IMG/VR virus record: IMGVR_UViG_3300025151_000147
Coordinates: 1-34,245 of that record
Reading direction: 5' to 3' (one strand)
From: a virus
Length of the DNA: 34,245 bases
Position 1 is the first letter of the stretch. Every line of letters starts with the position of its first letter. A program made the position numbers and the translations under genes. The notes under the pieces were generated by a model, which ran no database searches, was not told the DNA's origin, and saw only the letters and a list, made by a program, of their open reading frames with translations. Positions 11,815-34,245 of the stretch are shown in pieces.

Positions 11815-14800
11815 ATGCCCGTATCAGATGTTCGCGTCCCTGACGGCAGAATACTCCAAATATCGCACCCCGAAGGAGCGACTGAAGAAGAAATCTTTGC
11901 GTTCGCGAAATATCAGTACCTTCAGTTTGAAGAGCCGCCAGCAAGAGCAGAGCCTGTCTCTCCTCCCGTCGAGGAGGAGGAAGATACAGGCATGCTGTCC
12001 GACATTGCGGAGTTCGGTCAACGGACCCTTGGGGCGGCGGGCAGAATACTGGGCCAATCTCCGGCTGGCTTGCAGTCCCTGTTCCGTGAGGGCATGGAGG
12101 AGGATGAGGAGCTTGTCGAGCGCAATCGCGCAATAGAAGAAAGCATCCGAAGCGGCCTTGGGTATGATGATGAGTATGACGACTCGACCCTTGGGCTAGC
12201 CGCAGATGTTACCGGATCAGTGCTGGGCTTTGGCGGAACCACTTTGGCTGGCGCGGCTCTGGGCAGTGTTGTTCCGGGTATCGGGACGCTAGTAGGCGGC
12301 GTGCTTGGCTTGGGTTCTGGCATATTGCTAGGTGCAGGGTCAAATGTGGCTCGCGGAATGGAAGAGGCGGCGAGGCAGGTTGAGCGCGGCGAGATTGTCA
12401 GTGACGCGGATTACGAGAAGGCGAGCACAAGGTTAGCGGCGATTGGCGCCTCCGAGGGACTGCCATTTATTGGCCCTACGTTCAGAGTATTGCGCCGTAT
12501 ATCAGGAGCCGCGGCCAAAAACCCCAAAGCGGTAGAGACGCTGGGGGATTATATTCGTAGTGCGGCCTTGCAGGGCACGGAGGAGGCGGCTCAGGAAGCG
12601 CTTGCCGGTATAGCGACAGACGCTGTATTGAAAGAATACATCAACCCAGACATAGAGATAGGTGACTCGCTCGGCGTTGATCTGGTTGCAGGAGGTACGG
12701 CAGGCGCCCTGTTTGATGTTGGCATCAACCTTGCAACTCGCAGGAGGCGCACACCAGCCGACCCAGAGGAAGATATCAAGCCGTTCCGAGAGGAGCTGAT
12801 TGCCGAAGAGGCCGCTTTGCGAGAAAACGTAGAGTTGGCTGAGGAAGCTAGACGTGAGCGCATGGGCGAGCTTGCTACCGCACCCGTCGATCCGGTGGAC
12901 GCAACGGAAGTCGTAATGCCTGAGTTGTTAGAAGCAGGCCGGGCGTTTGCTGAACCCACGCCGCAAGAGATGAAGGTCATCGAAAAGCGTCGGGCGCAGG
13001 AGGAGCTGACAAGCGCAGAGCGCCGAATTCTGAATGAGTATAAACAGCGCCTGCCGGATGAGGGATCGTACAACGAGATAGCCAGAAGGGTTGTTCGTCA
13101 GATGGGCGATCAATTCCCGATTGAGCCAGAGTTTTATCTTGACGACAACATCGACGGCATGCCCGGAATGGTCGCGATTAGAGATGGCTCGGGCAGGATG
13201 TATGGCTCGCCTGTAAGCGCTGAGATGGCGCCGAAAGTACAGCCCGCCGTAGCGGCGCTCAATGGGCAGACGGTAGAAGAGAATATCTTCCAGAGCAATA
13301 GGACGGCAATAGCCTCGGCTAAAGAGGACTACTCCCCCGAGCAGGTGCAGACCCTTCAGCGGGTTGGTCGCATTGTGCTTGGCCCAGAATCATTGTCTTA
13401 CTCTGCTGAAGCCGCCAACTACGCAGGCGGAACAACGGCAGAAACCGGCTTCCTGCCTAATCTCTCCGCAGAGAAGGTGATTGAGGCAAAACTACCAAGA
13501 AAGAAGCAGACCATAGCCCAGCGCATCAACGTGCGCCGTATCAAAGAAGGCAAGGTGCCTAGCAACCGATTTGCCATCAGCGAAATCCGCAGGGAAATCG
13601 GCAAGGATGTGGGTCGCCTAGCTGAGTATGAAGCGGGGGCGTTTAGCGTTGACACCTACGCGGCTTTATCTACGCCGGTCAAGGGCAAGTTTGCTGTACA
13701 GCCGATGAGCCTCAGCCCGTCTGGGCAAATGGAGCCTTCTGGCGACCTGATCTTTGATCGTCCCGCAACCGCTGGAGAAAGGCAGGCGGCAAAAGATGCG
13801 GGGAAAACGGCCCGAAAGCGGGTGCCTTTTGCTTCTGCGGCAGAAGCGTTCGCGTTTGCCAGAGAGGCCAATAGCCGCAAGGGCGGTAGCTATATTCCCA
13901 CCCGTGAGCTGATGGGTGACCCAGAGTTTGGGATTGGCAAGATCAAGGAAATACTAGAGACAAAAAACATATCGTCTCCTCTTAACTCGCCAGAGGTAAA
14001 GAACCTAGCATCGCGGTTTACCGGCAGAAAACTACGCCGAGACCAGTCTATCAGCGATCTCACCGACGCCGAAAAGCAACTGTTTTATCAGAAGCTACGT
14101 CAGCTACCCCGCTTTTCGTCCCCAACCAATATCCCGCTTTTTAAATTACGCCCAAGGCCCGAGGCAGAGCCTGCCATTGAAGAGCAGGTGCAGGCAGAGA
14201 CCCTTGAACTGCCCTCTCCCGCCGTCCCGCAGGGCATGGACGCGGCGACAAAAGGCATTCTAGAGCGTGCCCTTGAGTCCAGACTAAGACAGCTTGGCCT
14301 CACTGATTACAAGACTATGGTGACCAACACGGTGAAGTCGGTCGCTCGGGATACAGATGGCAACGTCTATATGCGTAGCCGGCCAGAGGATCAGACGGCA
14401 GAAGCTCTTGCCGAGGGCGCCGCTAGCGTGGACGGCGCTCGCGTTATCCAGATTGCTGTTGACAACATCATGGCAAGAGGCGTCAAGCCTGATGACCTTG
14501 AAGCGGCGATGGTTGACGTGCTCAATCATGAGGTCGTTCACGCTCTCCGTGAGCTGGATGTCATAACGGAGCAAGAGTTACGCTTGCTTCAGCGTCTGGC
14601 CTCGCGCTACCGAATGATGTCCACCAAGAAAACCTACATGGATTGGGCGATTGACACATATGGCGACACAGAATCAGACGTAAACATTGCCGAAGAAGCA
14701 ATCGCAGAAATGATCCGAGATGCTATTTCAGGGCGGGTCATTATTGATAACAAGCCAGCAGTAGTATCGGGCAAGCCCCGATCAATCATCAATAAGATCG

Positions 14801-17800
14801 TCAAGTTCTTCAAGGGGCTGGTTGGCGTTGCTCAAGATGTTGATCCAGATTACACGTCATTTACCCAGTTCATGAATGATCTTGAGGCAGGTCGAATTGG
14901 CGCTAGAGAACGGGGGCCAATCAGAACCCTATACAGACTGGAGCGCGAAACGGGTCAGTTTATTGACCGCCCAGCGCCAGTGCGGACTGAAAGACAAGTA
15001 GAGACCTACGAGGTTGAAACTCCGACGGGTACGACCGTTATTGAAACAGACTCTCCTGAGGTGGCGGAGAGAACGGCTGAAGCTATGGGCGGCACTGCTA
15101 CGCAAACTGCGCGAGCGGGTGACCTTATGGATGAGGCAGGTCTTGGCGACATGATGCTGAGTCGACGAGCTGACATGAAGCACGGAATCCCGAGGCCATA
15201 CATTGTTTCGTCTAGGGGACAGGTTTCTGGAAAGCCCTCGCTACCCAAGGCGATAAACCCCAACAATGGGGCGGCACAAGCGCAGAAGCTAAAGGAGCTG
15301 GCGGAGCGGCATCCAGATCCGTTGTCCAGCAAGGCGGCATGGCTTAGGTTTGAGCGTGACCTGCTGGGTGACAATGAAACGCCATCCGCCCCAACCGGCC
15401 TGATTGACTTGTACAATGATATGGATGCGTGGGCCGAAAAGCACGAACAACTCACGCCAGACCAGCTTGCCGCCGCTGGTGAAGGATTTGAGCTTGTGGA
15501 AGACATGAGCAAAGCCTACGAGAATGGCGACGCCAGCGTAGACACTACAGGCAAGTTGATGCTGTGGGGCATGCTCTCGCGGATGCTGTCTGCCCACCCG
15601 CATGAGTCGGCGTTTTTGGATGCGGCTGTAGACAAAAAGTTGTCTGAGTTCATCAAGCGGGCCACGGCAAGGGAGTGGACACAGGCCGACATAGACGAAT
15701 ATCTTGCTTGGTCGGAAACAGTAATTCCCGACTTTGCCCCGTCTAAGCAAGGCACCTCCAACCTCCGAGCTTTCGGCAAGACGTTTTTACCAAAAATGTC
15801 AAAGCGCATGCCAAGCGGAAAATCAGCGCTGGAGGAACTGCATGACCTTATAGCTGACAAGTCAGTTCCAAGTAGTGACATCCGGGCCAAGTACTACAGC
15901 CTCAATCAGGGCATGGGGATTCAAAATAAAGTACTGTCTTTCATCCTGCTTATGACCGGCAGAAAGGATGTTGTGGTCTTAGACCGGATACAGATCAACT
16001 CCATGTGGGATGCAGGCCGATTCGGCAAGCTAATATACGACGATATAGCCGGCCTGTTTGAAGGCGCTCACGGACTGGCGCGGTACGAGGCGCTGGAGCG
16101 GTCCCTGTCGAACAAGATACAGGGTCTTTACGACAGGGTTGGCAGGACGGAAGATGCATCTGTTGGGCGCTATCACTGGGAAAGCTGGGTAAGGGATTCC
16201 GGTCAGGTTGTTTCTCACCCGACGATCAAGGGCTTGATTAGCGAGACAAAGGGGGATCAGCCCTTATCCAGCTCGTATGCGGACATAGGCGCCCCAGAAG
16301 GGCGCTTCCATCAATTTGCGTTTGGCTCTGTTTATGCCCGTGACGCAGATGGTGAGCCATACATTATGTATGCTGAGAGTGACGGCACTCCACACAAGTT
16401 CAAGCTGGGACGATTCAAGGAGTTTTTGGATCAGATCAGAAAGCCGGCCAGTGGGGTTATTCCTGCGAAATTTAGCGTAAAATCATACAGGGATGCCGGC
16501 TACCCGTGGTATCAATCAGAGGAAGTGAACCGTGAAAGACTCGACCAGATCATCCGAGATTTCTCAGAGGGAAAAACGTCTACAGAAGCGTCTGTTTCAG
16601 AGGCTGTTGAAGCTGAAGCAGAAGCCGATGTCGCCGGACAGCGACCAAGCGATGAGGACATCTTCGGTCAAGACAGGATCGCCTTCTCTCGCAGAGCGGC
16701 AGACAGAAATGTAGAGCAGTCAAGCAACGAGGCTATGGCTGACGTTGCTGATTATGTGACAGAAACAAACCCAGACGCCGCCGGCATGGCGACAATTGAA
16801 GCAGGCCCGATGGCCTACTCAATCAACTCAGGCTTCGCAGATCAAAACGGCTACGCACCCACCTTTACTACACCGTCACGGTCTTGGTTTCAGAAGATCG
16901 TCTTTCAAGTGCAGGACAAGCTGACCGACCTCAAATCGATAGAAGATGCCATCAATGAGGACCGGAAGGCAAGAGGGCTTCCCCCGCTAAAAGCGGCAGA
17001 GAGCGCGTACACCGGAGAGGAGACGCTTCCCGGCAAGATTGGGGAGTTTGACCGGCGATTCAGAAGTAATGAGCTGGAGCCGCTACTTAAAGACATGGCA
17101 GACAGCGATGTCACGCTGGACCAAATGGATGAGTTCTTGGTGCTACGCCACGCGATAGAGCGTAACGACCGTGTGCGAAAGATCAATCCAGCTATACCTG
17201 ATGCAGGATCTGGTAAGTGGGCGGGTCAGGAACTTACTGATCAATATGTTAAGGGCAAGATGTTGTCGGACTTCGGCATGAAGTGGAACGACAGCAAGGG
17301 TGAGTGGGAAGGCGGCAATGAGCGAGGCCGCACCTTATCCAGACTGGCCTCTCGCGTTGACAAAATTACCAGTACGACGCTGGCTATTACCCAGAAAGGT
17401 GAGCTGATTACTGAGCAAGAGCGGGCCTTTTTGGACGGCTTCTTTAAATACTACACTCCGTTACGGGGCATCGCGCAAGACGAGGACATTGCGGCGGAAA
17501 CTGATTCAAGAACCGCAGGCTCCGGAGGCACACTTAGTATTGTCGGGAAAGAGGTAAAGCGATTATTCGGAAGCGATAAAAAAGAGGTGATCTCTCCGCT
17601 AGCCACCACGGTGTCTATGCGAGGGACTCAAGCCGCACGGGCGGTGAAGAACACTTCATTTGGCAAGCGATTAATCAAGCTCATCCAAGAAAACCCCAAT
17701 GATGAAGTGTGGCAGTTGATCTCTCCGGAAGACCCCAGATACAAGACAGCCTTTGATTCGTCCTACACCTATGTCGGTCCTGACAGGTCACGATACGGCC

Positions 17801-19743
17801 AGAGGAAAAGCGACATATCTGGGGAGTCAGACAAAAAGAACTGGGTCAAGCGAGTGCGGGTAGTTCAAGACCCGGTGTTTAATCCTACTGGTCAGGAGCT
17901 GTTAGGAGTAAAGGTTGACGGCAAGCAGTACTACGTCTTCTTTCAGAATCCGGATCTCCGCAAGGCGGCAATAAACCTTGACGCACAGAGCGTCGGGTTT
18001 TTGGTGGAGAAGCTGAACGGGTTTACCCGCTTCATGTCATACGTCAACACCAGCCTTAACCCAGAGTTTGTTATGGGCAACTTCCCTCGCGACGTTGAGA
18101 CAGCCATTGCTAACATTGTTGGTGAGCAAACAATGGAAGGCGGTAAGGCGCTGGACGCCAAGGGAATTATCGGGGAGGTTCTGAAGACAACGATCCCCTC
18201 TGTTCGCGTGTTCTACAAGGGGTTCCGAAATCGAGACAGCTTGTCCAGCGAGGACGCCACCAACTTTAATGAGTTCATCACTTCCGGCACCAAAACGGAT
18301 TGGTTTCATTCACAGCCACCAGAGCAACAAAAGAAAAACCTTGAAATGATGGCTGAGATGGCTAAAGGAACATTCAAGGGTACTGCCGCGCAAGGGTTTA
18401 AGGCGGTTAAGGACTTTGTGGATGACAGCAATAACGCTGTTGAAAATGGCGTGCGTTTAGCTACATTTGTCGCGGCGCGGGATGCGATGATCAAGGGCGG
18501 CATGTCACGTTCGGACGCCATACAGCAGGCGTCTACGCTCTCCAAAAACTTAACCGTCAACTTCAACAGGAAGGGCAACTCCGGTCAATTGCTGAACGGA
18601 CTGTACCTTTTCTTCAACGCCTCAGTGCAGGGCACCGTCAATACGATGCGGGGGTTGAACGTGTTTGACCCTAACTCGTCAAGGACAAAGCAAGCGCTGG
18701 TCGGGTCAATCATGGGATTTGGCGCACTCACGACGGCGATTGCCAATGCGCTTATGGGTGAAGATGAGTTTGAGAGAATACCTGACTACATCAGGGATCG
18801 GAACATCATCATTCCGGACGCATTGTGGGGCGGTGACCCAGAAGCATACTCGACCATCCCTCTGCCATACGGCTACAACGTATTCTGGAATCTAGGGGAG
18901 AATGCCTACCTTGTTTCTGCTGGGCAGGTTTCGCCAGAGAATGCGGCAGTCAGGGCGACCAATGTTTTCCTCGGCTCCTTCAACCCGCTCGGCACATCTA
19001 CCAGCGAAACGTATCTTGGCTCGCTGGTCAAAACCGGCACGCCGCAGGTTCTCAAGCCGGCCCTTGAGCTGGTAATGAACGAGAACTATTTTGGCTCTCC
19101 CATTTACCCTCCGGACAGCCCGTTCGGCGGTGGGGACGACCCGCTGTCACGTCGCTCATTCTCCAATACCTCACAAGTCTGGAAGAGCATTGCAGAAACA
19201 ATTGGCACGTTAACTGGCGGCAACGAGTCAGAGCCGGGGCTTGTCGAAATACCACCGGACGCCTTGAGCTACTTGCTGTCGTTCTACGGTGGCGGCGCGG
19301 GATCATTTGCTGAAAGGACGTTCTTCAAGGTGCCCGATGCACTCATGGACCCCACGAAAAATCTGGAGATCAGGGACATTCCTTTCGTGCGAAGGATACG
19401 CGGCGAAGTGGACAATCGCGTAGACAGCGAGTCATTCTACGAGCGACGGGAGACGTTGCAGAGAAAAGACAGGCAGGCGAATGACAGACTGACAGGCGCA
19501 GAGCGCACCGCCTACATCAAGGAGAATCAGGACTACATCAAGATGCTTCCCATGCTTAAAGGGACAGAAAAAACATTACGAGCATTGCGCAAGTCGCTGA
19601 GGAACCTAGATAAATTGCAGAATGTCAGCCCGCAACGAGCACTTGAAATTGCCGAGCAAAAGCGGAAAATACAGGAGCGCATCGACAAAACAATAGAGCG
19701 CTTCAACAAAAGGTATGACGAAGTGGTAGGCAAAACAAAATAA
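11815..19743 (+). CDS. Giant polyvalent-type internal virion protein with HExxH metallopeptidase motif
   Basis: A 2642-residue protein, the largest gene here. Residues 1-45 hold a DGRILQI...EGATEEEIFAFAK opener. Residues 126-186 are a Gly/Ala/Leu hydrophobic segment (GTLVGGVLGLGSGILLGAG) that could enter membrane. A zincin motif HEVVH lies at 905-909, within a helical domain. A domain around 1340-1460 contains GRKDVVVLDRIQINSMWD. Residues about 2080-2270 (NPEFVMGNFPRD; LTVNFNRKGNSGQLLNGLYL) resemble the C-terminal domain of phage large polyvalent proteins (LPD38-like, recalled, unverified). The tail is a charged coiled coil. It follows the ejection block, so it is probably injected with the genome, with the peptidase or lytic function opening or modifying the cell. 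Confidence 0.7.
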   Translation: MPVSDVRVPDGRILQISHPEGATEEEIFAFAKYQYLQFEEPPARAEPVSPPVEEEEDTGMLSDIAEFGQRTLGAAGRILGQSPAGLQSLFREGMEEDEELVERNRAIEESIRSGLGYDDEYDDSTLGLAADVTGSVLGFGGTTLAGAALGSVVPGIGTLVGGVLGLGSGILLGAGSNVARGMEEAARQVERGEIVSDADYEKASTRLAAIGASEGLPFIGPTFRVLRRISGAAAKNPKAVETLGDYIRSAALQGTEEAAQEALAGIATDAVLKEYINPDIEIGDSLGVDLVAGGTAGALFDVGINLATRRRRTPADPEEDIKPFREELIAEEAALRENVELAEEARRERMGELATAPVDPVDATEVVMPELLEAGRAFAEPTPQEMKVIEKRRAQEELTSAERRILNEYKQRLPDEGSYNEIARRVVRQMGDQFPIEPEFYLDDNIDGMPGMVAIRDGSGRMYGSPVSAEMAPKVQPAVAALNGQTVEENIFQSNRTAIASAKEDYSPEQVQTLQRVGRIVLGPESLSYSAEAANYAGGTTAETGFLPNLSAEKVIEAKLPRKKQTIAQRINVRRIKEGKVPSNRFAISEIRREIGKDVGRLAEYEAGAFSVDTYAALSTPVKGKFAVQPMSLSPSGQMEPSGDLIFDRPATAGERQAAKDAGKTARKRVPFASAAEAFAFAREANSRKGGSYIPTRELMGDPEFGIGKIKEILETKNISSPLNSPEVKNLASRFTGRKLRRDQSISDLTDAEKQLFYQKLRQLPRFSSPTNIPLFKLRPRPEAEPAIEEQVQAETLELPSPAVPQGMDAATKGILERALESRLRQLGLTDYKTMVTNTVKSVARDTDGNVYMRSRPEDQTAEALAEGAASVDGARVIQIAVDNIMARGVKPDDLEAAMVDVLNHEVVHALRELDVITEQELRLLQRLASRYRMMSTKKTYMDWAIDTYGDTESDVNIAEEAIAEMIRDAISGRVIIDNKPAVVSGKPRSIINKIVKFFKGLVGVAQDVDPDYTSFTQFMNDLEAGRIGARERGPIRTLYRLERETGQFIDRPAPVRTERQVETYEVETPTGTTVIETDSPEVAERTAEAMGGTATQTARAGDLMDEAGLGDMMLSRRADMKHGIPRPYIVSSRGQVSGKPSLPKAINPNNGAAQAQKLKELAERHPDPLSSKAAWLRFERDLLGDNETPSAPTGLIDLYNDMDAWAEKHEQLTPDQLAAAGEGFELVEDMSKAYENGDASVDTTGKLMLWGMLSRMLSAHPHESAFLDAAVDKKLSEFIKRATAREWTQADIDEYLAWSETVIPDFAPSKQGTSNLRAFGKTFLPKMSKRMPSGKSALEELHDLIADKSVPSSDIRAKYYSLNQGMGIQNKVLSFILLMTGRKDVVVLDRIQINSMWDAGRFGKLIYDDIAGLFEGAHGLARYEALERSLSNKIQGLYDRVGRTEDASVGRYHWESWVRDSGQVVSHPTIKGLISETKGDQPLSSSYADIGAPEGRFHQFAFGSVYARDADGEPYIMYAESDGTPHKFKLGRFKEFLDQIRKPASGVIPAKFSVKSYRDAGYPWYQSEEVNRERLDQIIRDFSEGKTSTEASVSEAVEAEAEADVAGQRPSDEDIFGQDRIAFSRRAADRNVEQSSNEAMADVADYVTETNPDAAGMATIEAGPMAYSINSGFADQNGYAPTFTTPSRSWFQKIVFQVQDKLTDLKSIEDAINEDRKARGLPPLKAAESAYTGEETLPGKIGEFDRRFRSNELEPLLKDMADSDVTLDQMDEFLVLRHAIERNDRVRKINPAIPDAGSGKWAGQELTDQYVKGKMLSDFGMKWNDSKGEWEGGNERGRTLSRLASRVDKITSTTLAITQKGELITEQERAFLDGFFKYYTPLRGIAQDEDIAAETDSRTAGSGGTLSIVGKEVKRLFGSDKKEVISPLATTVSMRGTQAARAVKNTSFGKRLIKLIQENPNDEVWQLISPEDPRYKTAFDSSYTYVGPDRSRYGQRKSDISGESDKKNWVKRVRVVQDPVFNPTGQELLGVKVDGKQYYVFFQNPDLRKAAINLDAQSVGFLVEKLNGFTRFMSYVNTSLNPEFVMGNFPRDVETAIANIVGEQTMEGGKALDAKGIIGEVLKTTIPSVRVFYKGFRNRDSLSSEDATNFNEFITSGTKTDWFHSQPPEQQKKNLEMMAEMAKGTFKGTAAQGFKAVKDFVDDSNNAVENGVRLATFVAARDAMIKGGMSRSDAIQQASTLSKNLTVNFNRKGNSGQLLNGLYLFFNASVQGTVNTMRGLNVFDPNSSRTKQALVGSIMGFGALTTAIANALMGEDEFERIPDYIRDRNIIIPDALWGGDPEAYSTIPLPYGYNVFWNLGENAYLVSAGQVSPENAAVRATNVFLGSFNPLGTSTSETYLGSLVKTGTPQVLKPALELVMNENYFGSPIYPPDSPFGGGDDPLSRRSFSNTSQVWKSIAETIGTLTGGNESEPGLVEIPPDALSYLLSFYGGGAGSFAERTFFKVPDALMDPTKNLEIRDIPFVRRIRGEVDNRVDSESFYERRETLQRKDRQANDRLTGAERTAYIKENQDYIKMLPMLKGTEKTLRALRKSLRNLDKLQNVSPQRALEIAEQKRKIQERIDKTIERFNKRYDEVVGKTK

Positions 19744-22807: not shown

Positions 22808-23072
22808 TGGTTCCCTCCTTCTGGGTGTTTTTACTAAGCTGACCTCCGCAGGTTGCTATCCAGTCAAGATAAGCGGCCCTCGGGATGATATATCTCTTCC
22901 CAATTCGTATATTAGGAATAAGCCCTTCTTTGCATGCGGAGTAAGCGTGATTAAGTCCAATGCCAAGGCGGTCGGCCACCTCATGCATGGACATTACATC
23001 CTCGCCCAAATAGTAGTTGGCATATCTTTCCGCGCCTCTTGGCCCGACTGAGTTTTGAGATTTTTCTTTCAT
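22800..23072 (-). CDS. Excisionase-like HTH DNA-binding protein
   Basis: A 90-residue protein. Residues 25-72 (MSMHEVADRLGIGLNHAYSA, then GLIPNIRIGKRYIIPRAAYL) follow the MerR-like HTH_17 / excisionase fold: recognition helix, then a beta-wing with R-x-G-x-R-x-x-I and a closing helix. There is no integrase in the window, so it more likely regulates transcription than excision. It overlaps both neighbours (8 nt with the SSB-like gene and ATGA with the annealing protein), so it is made together with the recombination proteins. Confidence 0.75.
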   Translation of the reverse strand: MKEKSQNSVGPRGAERYANYYLGEDVMSMHEVADRLGIGLNHAYSACKEGLIPNIRIGKRYIIPRAAYLDWIATCGGQLSKNTQKEGTNE

Positions 23073-23806
23073 GCGCTCGCCTCTTTGAGCTTTTGTCGTA
23101 GAGCAGTGAAGTGGCCCTTCAGTTGCTCGTAGTGCTCGTTGTAGTTTTGATCCAGCAGATCGATGACCTGCTTGTTCTGCTTCCAGAAATCGATCAGGTC
23201 TTGCTCTGTGCCTGTTGCGAACGTGTCAGCAGTACTCATCATGAACGCCAGCACGTTATCAGCCTCTTCCTTGGACCCGATGTGATTTTCGGCAGGCTGT
23301 GCCTGCTCGGCAACCTCCTCCTGCTTGATCGGCGTCACCTTCTGGGCCGGCTCCTTTTTCTTGGCAGGCTTTTTCTCTGGCTTTGGCTCTGATGGCGGGT
23401 CGCTATCGGGCGGTAGGTCTTCGCCAGCGTAGATGTAATGGCCCAACCCAAACATCGCCAGACACTTGGTCAAACAGCGCATACGAGTGTCAGATATTGC
23501 TCTTGAGTCAGGGTGCGCTATGGCTTTATTTTTGTAGTCCATCACAGGCAACCACATCATCCGGTCAAGCTCTCCTATCTTGACACTGACCCACACCGTT
23601 GCGTGCCCTTGGTTGTCCCACTCTTCGTTGAGAAACTGGTATGTCGCCTGCGGATAGTGCTCCATCAAGGTGCCCCACGCCCACGCCCAAGACAGATAGG
23701 TCAGGCCGTTTTTCTTTTCGACGCGTTCGCTAACGTCAACCTTTGACAGTCTCTCCCAGACCGACTGGTATGTCGGTTCAGAGGAGGTAGTTTTTTTTGT
23801 GCTCAT
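23069..23806 (-). CDS. DUF1071 single-strand annealing protein
   Basis: A 245-residue protein. Residues 10-130 (SVWERLSKVDVSERVEKKNG; LSYLSWAWAW-like; THVDYKNKAIAHPDSRAISD region) match DUF1071, a family of phage single-strand annealing proteins in the Redbeta/RecT group. These pair complementary single strands during recombination and replication. A Lys/Glu/Pro-rich linker (residues 140-175) and a C-terminal acidic helix (195-245) follow. It is encoded two genes downstream of a PD-(D/E)XK nuclease, the classic exonuclease-plus-annealase pair. Start ATG overlaps the small upstream gene by 29 nt and has AGGAGTAAGCG upstream. Confidence 0.85.
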   Translation of the reverse strand: MSTKKTTSSEPTYQSVWERLSKVDVSERVEKKNGLTYLSWAWAWGTLMEHYPQATYQFLNEEWDNQGHATVWVSVKIGELDRMMWLPVMDYKNKAIAHPDSRAISDTRMRCLTKCLAMFGLGHYIYAGEDLPPDSDPPSEPKPEKKPAKKKEPAQKVTPIKQEEVAEQAQPAENHIGSKEEADNVLAFMMSTADTFATGTEQDLIDFWKQNKQVIDLLDQNYNEHYEQLKGHFTALRQKLKEASA

Positions 23807-23999: not shown

Positions 24000-24205
24000 T
24001 CGGCATCCTTATCGTAGTGCCAGCTATTGCAGTCTCCGTAACGGTTGTACGCGGCCAGCCCTTGACTATCTGTGACCGCCCTTGCTGTTGCTTTTTTCGG
24101 GTCGGTTGAGAGCCGTATGTCATTGGTGGTTTTTTGCCAGTGACTTCGGTTTTCAGACGCCGTTCTACCGCAAAATGCATATCTCGGCTGACGATGTTTT
24201 TTCAT
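23996..24205 (-). CDS. Small basic hypothetical protein
   Basis: A 69-residue protein from ATG 24205, which overlaps the stop of the nuclease gene (ATGA); a start at 24229 would overlap further. It is hydrophilic and rich in Lys, Arg, Asp and Asn (KKHRQPRYAFCGRTASENRS; DSQGLAAYNRYGDCNSWHYD) with two Cys. The frame is preferred over a competing 201-nt frame at 23980-24180 because both its ends are coupled to neighbours. No family is recognised. Confidence 0.5.
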   Translation of the reverse strand: MKKHRQPRYAFCGRTASENRSHWQKTTNDIRLSTDPKKATARAVTDSQGLAAYNRYGDCNSWHYDKDAE

Positions 24206-25062
24206 GCGGCCCTCCATTGGTCGCACCACTCAGCAACACGGCACCAGTTATCCTCGCATCTGGTGTACCGCCCCTCTCTGGTCTCGACAATCAAGTCCTC
24301 CTTACCCTCGGCGTATTCACGCGCCTCATCCATTGAGTCGAACACCCTCAGCGCTCGCTTGTTGCCATCTTTCTTGACGGCGAACAGGTCAGGCTTTTTC
24401 CATCGCTCCTCGTCAGAGCATGGGGGTAATGGCTCGCCAGTCAGGCGCAGGAACTCGGCTTCGTCGTGGAGGCGGACCCGCTCACGAACATAGCTATCCC
24501 TGTCTTGTTGACTCCAAAGCGGGATATCCACAATCACGATTGGCGCCTTCGGGTAATTCGCCTCGCCGGCCTTGTTCCGTTGCCAGTCCCGCAGGACCGC
24601 CACGATGTTCAGCGCCGACACCTCAACGTCATGATTCTGCTCGACGAGCCAAGCGTAGAAGTTAAGTTGCTTGTCCCACTCCTTCTTGCCGTAGATGACA
24701 GACCAGACTGACGTACACTTGTAGTCGAGAATGGTGACGGTGCCATCTCCTTCGGAGCGTTGTAGGTCGATAGCGCCGCTGATCAGCCAGTTATCAACCT
24801 CGGCAAACAACCTTTCCTCCACGATGTGGCCGTCCGGTTGGTGTCGCTCAAACATGTTATGGACTGCGGTGCCAAGTACAGACCAGACCATGTCGGATGC
24901 GTCTTCCTCAATCACGGCATCGTGCTCTGCCTTGAGAATGCGCACACGCGGAGAGTCGATCAGTTGTGTAACGGATCGATTGCTGTTGCCACGGCTGTAA
25001 TCGCTGTGGGTCAGCGCCTGATAGACAGGCTCCGGTAGATTGGTGTGGTTAGTTATTCTCAC
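24202..25062 (-). CDS. PD-(D/E)XK exonuclease with Cys cluster
   Basis: A 286-residue nuclease of the Cas4/RecB-like PD-(D/E)XK superfamily, the likely exonuclease partner of the annealing protein. Active-site elements: H68 in GTAVHNMFE, D99 in ISGAIDL, D113-Y-K115 in ILDYK, and the Q132/Y136 motif QLNFYAW. Four Cys at 215, 269, 274 and 280 (PPCSDEERW; RCEDNWCRVAEWC) could hold an iron-sulfur cluster. In canonical Cas4/AddB one Cys lies N-terminal to the nuclease core, but here all are C-terminal. GTG start overlaps the upstream stop (GTGA). It would resect ends to give single strands for DUF1071. Confidence 0.8.
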   Translation of the reverse strand: MRITNHTNLPEPVYQALTHSDYSRGNSNRSVTQLIDSPRVRILKAEHDAVIEEDASDMVWSVLGTAVHNMFERHQPDGHIVEERLFAEVDNWLISGAIDLQRSEGDGTVTILDYKCTSVWSVIYGKKEWDKQLNFYAWLVEQNHDVEVSALNIVAVLRDWQRNKAGEANYPKAPIVIVDIPLWSQQDRDSYVRERVRLHDEAEFLRLTGEPLPPCSDEERWKKPDLFAVKKDGNKRALRVFDSMDEAREYAEGKEDLIVETREGRYTRCEDNWCRVAEWCDQWRAA

Positions 25063-31568: not shown

Positions 31569-32972
31569 TTACGCCGCCTGAGCGACGATGGTGTCGGCAC
31601 CAGAGACGCCGATCATTCGGCGGATGTAGGGCACCGGCTCGCTGTCGAGCACCACAACCAGATTGTCGCGCTGGCCCAGTGCGTTCCAGTCATCGTCATA
31701 CATCTCGCCATCGGTGAACACAATGACCAGATCAGACTCCAGACCGTTCTGCTCAAGCCACTCGACACCAGCGGTCATGTAGGTGCCGCCGCCGCAGGGT
31801 GCCTCAAGGTCGAGAAGCTCTGCACCGGAGTACACCTCGTCGGAACTGTGGAACTGGTGATTAGTCCAAGCAACCACAACACCGTCACGCGGCTGGAGCG
31901 TGTCGATCAGAGACGCAGACTCAATCATGAATTGATTGAGCATGTCGCGGCTGACTGATGCTGAGATGTCAACGACAATGGAGACGCGCCCGATCTGACC
32001 AATCGACGTGGGGCTGATGACGCCCAGCGTCGAGAACCGGCGGCGGTGAATGCGAGACCATGTGGTCTGACCGCCAGCGCCTGCGCGGTTGAATCGATCA
32101 GCAAGCTCTGCACGCCAGTCGGTGTCGGATGCATTGCTGGGACGGTAGCGGTGCGAACCCTCGCGGATAGACTCAGGGAGTCGCGCAGGGTCGCGCCCGT
32201 CAGCCTCAAGCTGATCGATGCCATCGTCCACTGATGAGCGGATGTCGTGCTCATCTTCGCGAGCCGCGGCGTCCTGCTCCTCATCGGTGCCCTCATACTC
32301 AGGCGTCAGGTGATGGTCGTGACCGGCAGGCTCCGGCAAGTCGCTTGCTTCTGACTCGTCAGCAGTAGGCTCACCATCCTGAGCACCTGCGTCGTCGGCT
32401 TCGTCTTGCATTTCCTTGCCGCCCCCATTGGAGTCGGAGTCGGGATTGCTGGGCTTGTCCGACTTGTTTCCACCGTGGATATCGTCATCGTCATCCTGTT
32501 TTTGGTACAGGTCAGCGTAGACCGAATCGACAATGTCATTGCGTCCGTACTCATCGGAGTAGCAACCCTGCGGGATAGGCTCAAAGCCCATCGCCTTGCA
32601 GTCGGAGTTGATGATGTAGTCGGCGGCGCGGTTGTAGAGGCCGTGATCGAATGACACGTTGGGTCGAAAGAACCCGCGGTCCTGATACACCTTGCCGCGC
32701 TGGGGGTGCCGCAGGATTATGTGCGACACCTCATGAGCAAGCAGGAATGCCCGCTGTGAGTCTGACTCAAGCCCGCGAAAGAACTCGGGGCTGATGTAGA
32801 CATAGACGCCGTCAGTGGCGGCGGTCGAGATGGCGTCAGTCCAGATCACCTCAGTGGCGAGTAGCACACTGTAATGAACGGGCGCTTTTGATTGCAGGCT
32901 GATCAGCGCCGCAATGTAGCGGCGCGAGTTGGTGAGATCAGCAGTGGGTGCGAATAGCTTTTTAGCTCGCAT
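31569..32972 (-). CDS. Metallopeptidase-VWA fusion (DUF2201-type), MoxR partner
   Basis: A 467-residue protein. N-terminal zincin: H80-E81-V-S-H84-x4-H89 (HEVSHIILRH), followed by GLYNRAADYIIN, as in the DUF2201 metallopeptidase domain. Acidic linker at 157-262 rich in Asp, Glu and Ser. C-terminal von Willebrand A domain with complete MIDAS: D335-x-S337-x-S339 (VDISASVS), T397 in CGGGTYM and D421 in VFTDGEM. Such proteins work with MoxR AAA+ ATPases to remodel or activate target proteins; that partner lies directly upstream, with two bases between stop and start. The target is unknown. Confidence 0.9.
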   Translation of the reverse strand: MRAKKLFAPTADLTNSRRYIAALISLQSKAPVHYSVLLATEVIWTDAISTAATDGVYVYISPEFFRGLESDSQRAFLLAHEVSHIILRHPQRGKVYQDRGFFRPNVSFDHGLYNRAADYIINSDCKAMGFEPIPQGCYSDEYGRNDIVDSVYADLYQKQDDDDDIHGGNKSDKPSNPDSDSNGGGKEMQDEADDAGAQDGEPTADESEASDLPEPAGHDHHLTPEYEGTDEEQDAAAREDEHDIRSSVDDGIDQLEADGRDPARLPESIREGSHRYRPSNASDTDWRAELADRFNRAGAGGQTTWSRIHRRRFSTLGVISPTSIGQIGRVSIVVDISASVSRDMLNQFMIESASLIDTLQPRDGVVVAWTNHQFHSSDEVYSGAELLDLEAPCGGGTYMTAGVEWLEQNGLESDLVIVFTDGEMYDDDWNALGQRDNLVVVLDSEPVPYIRRMIGVSGADTIVAQAA

Positions 32973-32974
32973 GG

Positions 32975-34111
32975 TTACACCTCCATGCCGGCAGTTTGTG
33001 CCAGCGGTAAAAGATCGTGGAACTTCTGAATGAATGCCACAGCGACACTCGACGTGAGTACCCAGCCTTGACGGGCTGAGGCGCGGAGCAGTTTAGACCC
33101 CAGCGACACCTGCAAGTCGGGACGCAGGCGCGTGATGTAGGCCAGTGCCGCCTCGCCAGTATCGGCATCGGATGCGCAGTTGATAGCGCGGTTGGCGGCG
33201 AGCAGTTGGTAGCCCGTTGCGTCTGGCACGTTAGCACCAGTGGGGTCAGCGAATATCTCAGCCGCAGTCGGCACCTGATCAGCCATCGCAATGTGGCGGG
33301 TCAGCATACCGGCGGCGCGGTCGCCAATGTTGGCGGCGATCAGTGACTCGACATATGACGGGATGGTCATGCCGTCGAAATCAGCAGAATCAGCAAACGC
33401 CGTCAGGTGCTGGGCGGCGCGTACCAGTGAGCGCGGGGTGCAGAATGGGCCGTCCTCAGTCGGGACGCAGTCAGCGAAAAAGCCGTCATCTGCATAGGCC
33501 ATCGCGCAGTCAATCGCCAGCGGGTTCACGCCATTGTCAGCGGCCCAATCGGCCCAGCCCTTGACATCAAACTGAAGCTCAAACACCGCGCACCGGTTGA
33601 GCAAGTGCGACAGCATACGGGTAGCACCTGACTTGTCAGATGTACGGTTGCCGGTGAAGCAAACGATCCAGCCGTCAGGGATGGGGTGACCGCCGACAGT
33701 GCGCTCGGCAGGGTCGAGCAAGTCGGCCAGCACCTTCTGAACGTCAGCAGTCGCCTGCATTAGCTCATCGATCAAGATGATGCCGTAGGGCTTGCCGGTC
33801 TCCCTGATTTTGGTGATCAGCGGCGCGACAGTGAATGTGGTGCGGAGGTTGCCGTCCGCGTCCTTTGATGGCAGTGCGACACCAGCGATCTCTGCTGAGT
33901 CGCGATTGGCAACGCGCTCTTGAATGAACCCAAGGTCATCAGTGGAGACGCCAACGTGCTCCGCGTACAGGTCGCGGAACCAGCCTTTGAAGTACTGGGT
34001 CTTGCCAACGCCCACGGGGCCGATCAGGCCCACGGGTTGCTGGTTGCCACTGGCGAGTACCAGCGGGACAATTTTTTGAAACTCGGCAATAGTGGTTTGA
34101 ATGTGTGCCAT
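32975..34111 (-). CDS. MoxR-type AAA+ ATPase
   Basis: A 378-residue AAA+ ATPase. Walker A GPVGVGKT at 31-38, Walker B IILIDE at 111-116, sensor-1 Asn155 in CFTGNRTSD, and an Arg finger candidate in SHLLNRCAVFEL (about R173). The C-terminal half is helical with no protease domain. MoxR proteins act with VWA partners as chaperones; here the next gene encodes the partner. Ribosome site TAGGAGGGATTTCAC. The pair's role in a phage could be virion assembly, activation of a phage enzyme, or interference with host complexes; none is shown by sequence. Confidence 0.9.
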   Translation of the reverse strand: MAHIQTTIAEFQKIVPLVLASGNQQPVGLIGPVGVGKTQYFKGWFRDLYAEHVGVSTDDLGFIQERVANRDSAEIAGVALPSKDADGNLRTTFTVAPLITKIRETGKPYGIILIDELMQATADVQKVLADLLDPAERTVGGHPIPDGWIVCFTGNRTSDKSGATRMLSHLLNRCAVFELQFDVKGWADWAADNGVNPLAIDCAMAYADDGFFADCVPTEDGPFCTPRSLVRAAQHLTAFADSADFDGMTIPSYVESLIAANIGDRAAGMLTRHIAMADQVPTAAEIFADPTGANVPDATGYQLLAANRAINCASDADTGEAALAYITRLRPDLQVSLGSKLLRASARQGWVLTSSVAVAFIQKFHDLLPLAQTAGMEV

Positions 34112-34135
34112 GTGAAATCCCTCCTACAGGATAAG

Positions 34136-34245
34136 TTAGTCGATGAGGTCAGCGAGCAGTGAATCGCCCGTGACTACGTTAGATGCGGCGGGTGCCGCGG
34201 GTGTTGTGGTTGATTCCCCCTTGACTACCTCAGCCAGCGTTTTAC
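34136..34245 (-). CDS. C-terminal end of a gene upstream of MoxR (partial)
   Basis: Reading leftward from the window edge, 35 residues are open, ending TGDSLLADLID before TAA at 34138-34136. The visible segment has KTLAEVVKGESTTTPAAPAA, an Ala/Pro/Thr-rich linker ending in an acidic-hydrophobic tail. The AAA ATPase ATG is 24 nt after the stop, so it belongs to the same leftward operon. An acidic hydrophobic tail may bind a partner. No function can be assigned from the fragment. Confidence 0.6.
   Translation of the reverse strand, partial: KTLAEVVKGESTTTPAAPAASNVVTGDSLLADLID

Follow-up and report, generated by a model that had tools for sequence, protein, structure and literature searches.

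What does a MoxR-type ATPase, paired with a metallopeptidase-VWA protein, do for a virus? The window, the whole 34,245-base stretch of virus record IMGVR_UViG_3300025151_000147 and a fragment of a genome, carries the ORFs of both proteins near one of its ends, on the minus strand and separated by a 2-base gap (TAA cc ATG). An earlier note had read here a complete pair, two bases apart, with intact Walker, MIDAS and HExxH motifs. The positions and motifs are confirmed, and the protein identities are borne out by Pfam and PHROG matches. Both ORFs are whole, but a third gene of the system, cut by the contig end at 34136-34245, had been missed. Such a pair in a virus is already known and not new. 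A 2009 description of marine roseophages listed N4 gp24 and gp25 without known function (PMC2784036), and both stand among the conserved genes in the panproteome table of the Schitoviridae (PMC7650795). The combination of MoxR with a metallopeptidase-VWA protein was described in 2021 in group 2.2 jumbo phages, where a part in virion assembly was suggested for it (PMC7824862). Genes of the N4 gp24/gp25 type are widespread in phages. What is new is modest: DUF3150 as third component, and a connection with plasmids.

The MoxR-type AAA+ ATPase (378 aa, 32975-34111, minus strand) is preceded by a Shine-Dalgarno sequence, AGGAGGG, read directly at 34119-34125 of the same strand. The protein is N4 gp24-like and matches PHROG 1297, an ATPase family, at E 4e-48, while Pfam AAA models reach 1e-4 at best, under their cut-offs. 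Walker A, GPVGVGKT, occupies residues 31-38 (33998-34021, minus), with K37 kept in 137/137 homologues; Walker B, IILIDE, occupies residues 111-116 (33764-33781, minus), with D115 kept in 140/140 and E or D at position 116 in 140/140. Sensor-1 N155, R173 and R227 are each found in 142/142 homologues. Searched against the PDB, the family profile matches midasin best (2e-45), with CbbQ, NorQ and CobS among further matches; on these profiles, the closest solved relatives of the window's MoxR belong to the MoxR/midasin clade.

The partner (467 aa, 31569-32972, minus strand) is N4 gp25-like and matches PHROG 1314 at E 2e-60. Its N-terminal metallopeptidase domain (DUF2201_N) is joined by an acidic linker to a VWA domain at the C-terminus. 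Pfam DUF2201_N (putative metallopeptidase) is matched at E 6e-26 (92.1 bits against a cut-off of 23.2) and DUF2201 (VWA-like) at E 7e-9 (36.3 bits against 26.4). The zincin motif HEVSH lies at residues 80-84 (32721-32735, minus); H80 is kept in 144/153 homologues, E81 in 141/153 and H84 in 153/154, and the full HExxH in about 141 of 153. D118, within an N-x-A-x-D-x-x-I-N motif (32619-32621, minus; 153/153), is a candidate third metal ligand. In the VWA domain, the MIDAS motif DISAS (D335-x-S337-x-S339, residues 335-339, 31956-31970, minus) keeps its D, S and S in 153/153, and is completed by T397 (31782-31784; 152/154) and D421 (31710-31712; 154/154). The AlphaFold model of the protein has a mean pLDDT of 81.6. 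In it, residues 324-467 fold as a VWA domain, superposing on 6snk over 136 residues with Z 11.9 and rmsd 2.5, and the model matches NorD of the NorQD entry 9qhe at a Foldseek E of 2e-4. A candidate finger is the conserved W-x-R-x-x-R-R...P segment immediately ahead of the MIDAS strand.

Between the two domains lies an acidic low-complexity linker (residues ~160-226, 32295-32495, minus). Its net acidic charge is 14-26 in the window's clade against a median of 4 elsewhere. The block of residues 161-200 shares 23-48% identity with relatives, and residues 171-218 fall under pLDDT 50 and are predicted to be disordered. The long acidic linker is a fast-evolving, lineage-specific feature of the window's clade. 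The fusion itself had been called not usual, a view that does not hold: the N-terminal metallopeptidase domain is common to the full-length relatives aligned, the architecture is published for jumbo phages, and the fused protein is the family's normal form. Even the divergent VWA protein of the IncA plasmid pRA1 has both HExxH and the conserved Asp.

The two active sites are not kept with equal strictness. Across some 140-154 homologues, MIDAS is kept more strictly than the zincin motif. Eight Gallionella-type copies carry NQxxH in place of HExxH with MIDAS intact and are probably inactive as peptidases. This makes the VWA/AAA+ core the constant part; since some relatives have lost the zincin motif, proteolysis is not essential to the family and is probably optional. 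The key motif residues, on whose conservation the earlier note had staked its reading, are nearly invariant across these homologues. Values of dN/dS for the pair's genes against close relatives are 0.09-0.25 in most comparisons and 0.32 for one mosaic MoxR, a range (0.09-0.32) that places both genes under purifying selection. In that mosaic (L004:6001-7143), identity to the window is 92-100% over the last 98 residues and just 45-80% over the first 280; the L004 VWA gene is 92% identical to the window, unlike the 5' part of its MoxR. The identity pattern points to recombination inside the L004 MoxR gene.

Two leads from annotation and gene structure were set aside. The PHROG 1314 label 'HNH endonuclease' is unsupported, the Pfam matches being to DUF2201 and HExxH and MIDAS being conserved; this misleading label has passed into RefSeq annotations of N4-like phages. 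A MoxR-VWA gene fusion at locus L071, considered as a sign of physical coupling, was dropped because its open frame spans an assembly gap, where a stretch of N is translated as XXXX.

The third gene enters the window only as its last 35 codons and stop (34136-34245, minus), whose translation is 71-80% identical to the C-terminus of relatives by tblastn. In five related loci it is complete and encodes a 325-aa protein, in the order DUF3150-like, MoxR, VWA. On a full-length relative, Pfam PF11348 (DUF3150) scores 22.3 bits against a cut-off of 24.9 (E 9e-5, residues 10-281), and 10/21 aligned family members match it at E up to 0.01. By tblastn, the protein also matches, at E 1e-4, a Synechococcus phage MinM2 protein annotated DUF3150 that stands beside MoxR and VWA genes, and homologues occur in 12 plasmids. 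The assignment as DUF3150-like thus draws on sub-threshold Pfam scores, synteny and one annotated relative. The structure model is helical; because the fold search returned generic helical bundles alone, no fold is assigned. Searches of NCBIfam and the literature gave no function for DUF3150, and no VMAP Pfam match was found for the upstream DUF3150-like protein. DUF3150 proteins end in Ala in 34/66 cases, against a 14% background, with an A-rich C-terminal tail, and the VWA protein ends in AQAA in the window's clade. These tails recall the C-terminal docking residues of NorD, a likeness that is suggestive only because the sequences are related. Two other candidates for the third slot were rejected as DUF3150: a 325-aa gene beside the VWA gene in Vequintavirus L019 (13% identity, no Pfam match), and the genes that fill the third slot where DUF3150 is missing, comprising three families from phages and one chromosomal family of 325-aa proteins, in which hhalign finds no similarity to DUF3150.

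At the other end of the operon, the earlier note had seen a terminator. The hairpin is present at 31563-31547 of the minus strand (GGGGGC-CAAGC-GCCCCC, then TTCTTTTT), but it folds with no unusual stability (z -1.06). Because of this, and because the following ORF has a Shine-Dalgarno sequence of its own and begins some 50 bases downstream, the hairpin may not end the transcript. In a promoter scan, no sigma-70 promoter stands out upstream.

How far does the set extend? By tblastn, the ATPase matches 361 phage records and the VWA protein 168, including N4-like phages annotated as N4 gp24/gp25-like. The same MoxR match found in rV5-like coliphages also appears in MG065690 (Campylobacter phage A135) and similar records, and in CP057073, a record of 137 kb described as an E. 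coli 'plasmid'; these records may be mislabelled, or a phage may have been deposited as a plasmid. A neighbourhood survey that used no bait but the VWA protein fetched 77 genome and 80 viral loci. Upstream flanks of 4.5 kb or more were available for 105 of these loci, related sequences included; MoxR adjoins the VWA gene in 101 of them and DUF3150 lies nearby in 46. Sets of DUF3150, MoxR and VWA genes are also present in cyanophages, in plasmids of Burkholderiales and Rhodovastum, and in pRA1. Two plasmid loci that were opened have the order MoxR, DUF3150-like, VWA. In pRA1, genes for an AAA ATPase, bet, exo, DUF3150 and VWA lie within 8 kb; in Burkholderiales elements, type IV secretion genes are found close to the set. 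Some chromosomal and plasmid sets have no virion genes alongside. In a separate arrangement, 13 phage loci place a further gene family between MoxR and VWA, and the member scanned contains Nmad5 (nucleotide modification associated domain 5).

The position of the operon was mapped in a sibling genome of 58,289 bases. There, packaging and structural genes extend one way from TerS and the three-gene operon is divergent from them, sharing its strand with an exonuclease and a Sak-like annealing protein while TerS/TerL and most structural genes occupy the other. In the window, the exonuclease (PHROG 2139, E 4e-52) lies at 24202-25062 and the Sak-like ssDNA-annealing protein (PHROG 8492, E 3e-47) at 23069-23806, both on the minus strand, as is the operon. 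Among the neighbours that could be identified across the phage loci, primase-helicase is the most frequent (28), followed by DNA polymerase A (21), TerS (20) and PD-(D/E)XK nucleases (18 and 13), counts that include closely related phages.

Several known systems bear comparison. N4 gp24/gp25 of Schitoviridae likewise have adjacent or near-adjacent MoxR and DUF2201 metallopeptidase-VWA genes near replication genes, and the window pair belongs to PHROGs 1297 and 1314 with its two genes adjacent; identity to the N4 proteins is, however, only ~20-27%, and DUF3150 was not found beside the Schitoviridae pair at two loci examined. The jumbo phage pair has the domain architecture of the window in a different phage group, and the available text of that description does not mention DUF3150 (PMC7824862). 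All three families recur in the DUF3150-AAA-VWA set of pRA1, with HExxH and the conserved D in the VWA protein and recombination genes nearby, whereas identity is ~18-20% and bet/exo lie between the pRA1 genes. NorQ/NorD, CbbQ/CbbO, RavA/ViaA and midasin share a MoxR-clade AAA+ protein with a MIDAS-VWA partner and probably a similar mechanism; the window adds a fused zincin domain and the DUF3150 partner. The VMAP/MoxR-vWA ternary conflict systems (PMC7159879) also join MoxR and vWA to a third component, which in the window is DUF3150-like, with no effector array on the vWA protein.

We regard as moderately probable that the operon encodes a MoxR/VWA remodelling machine of the N4 gp24/gp25 kind, NorQD- or midasin-like, made early from three genes and acting on DNA-replication, recombination or host complexes. 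The working model is taken from the NorQD mechanism (PMC13036017; PMC9976466). MoxR would form a hexameric AAA+ ring, on which the VWA protein would dock as NorD does on NorQ. The MIDAS metal would grip an acidic residue of the target, and ATP hydrolysis by MoxR would twist or pull the target complex. The fused zincin domain, if intact, may clip what is exposed, and DUF3150 would be a helical subunit that recognises the target or acts as an adaptor. The early-side strand, with the recurrent siting beside replication and recombination genes, suggests an early target other than the capsid, namely proteins assembled on DNA or a host complex encountered early in infection; 'early' expression is itself read from strand and neighbours. 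In favour of this remodelling machine are the conserved motifs and purifying selection, the matches to midasin, CbbQ, NorQ, CobS and NorD, the adjacency counts, the plasmid and cyanophage sets, the map of the sibling genome and the neighbouring replication genes. Against it stand the observations that about half of the loci are without DUF3150, that the DUF3150 assignment uses sub-threshold scores, that the zincin motif is lost in some relatives, and that no sigma-70 promoter stands out.

A more specific version is doubtful: that DUF3150, MoxR and the metallopeptidase-VWA protein form a distinct ternary remodelling and protease machine of phages and conjugative plasmids, stripping or cleaving DNA-bound proteins early after entry and so enabling element-encoded replication and recombination. 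DUF3150-MoxR-VWA would, in either case, be a three-subunit complex open to purification and to testing in laboratory phages such as N4 or an rV5-like phage.

We consider it unlikely that the machine serves virion assembly, where it would remodel and clip proteins of the head or tail, or ejected proteins, as the particle matures; the analogy here is with the Acidianus two-tailed virus. This role was proposed for the same architecture in jumbo phages (PMC7824862), and the window encodes a potential substrate at 11815-19743 (plus strand), a 2642-aa polyvalent protein that could need processing. In a check for the giant virion RNA polymerase of Schitoviridae, made on the window as a fragment, this protein matched only LPD38; its 2559-aa counterpart in the sibling genome aligns in part only. 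The set is, however, also carried by plasmids and chromosomes where virion genes do not flank it, and the operon of the sibling genome lies on the other strand from the packaging and most structural genes. The capsid maturation and ejection-protein activation put forward in the earlier note are disfavoured on the same grounds. Because elements without virions carry the set, virion assembly is unlikely as the shared role, and the DUF3150 partner and the plasmid link likewise argue against particle assembly as the conserved function; lineage-specific use in assembly is possible.

Equally improbable, in our estimate, is counter-defence or host takeover, with the machine disassembling a host defence, replication or transcription complex. 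The set is common to phages and conjugative plasmids, both of which enter new hosts, the operon lies on the early side, and in some bacteria a retron-like reverse transcriptase and a DNA methylase are encoded in the same operon as the MoxR/VWA pair. Yet PADLOC returned no match for the window's MoxR, VWA or DUF3150-like proteins, and many chromosomes carry the set too. A chaperone inserting a metal cofactor into a phage metalloenzyme, in the CobS/CobT or NorQD sense, is very improbable: NorQD inserts iron (PMC13036017) and the pRA1 MoxR resembles CobS below the NCBIfam cut-off, but the window's MoxR has no NCBIfam CobS match, no metalloenzyme was found beside the operon, and the VWA protein carries a fused peptidase domain.

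MoxR and the metallopeptidase-VWA protein also occur together in a chromosomal operon of a different kind. In five loci, and in six others, from Burkholderiales and Spirochaetales MAGs, overlapping genes form an operon of a reverse transcriptase of ~900-1030 aa, an N6/N4 DNA methylase, a 325-aa protein, MoxR, metallopeptidase-VWA and sometimes a small protein. The reverse transcriptase of one of them (L080) matches PADLOC RT_XIII at E 9e-73, and this operon is possibly a defence system.
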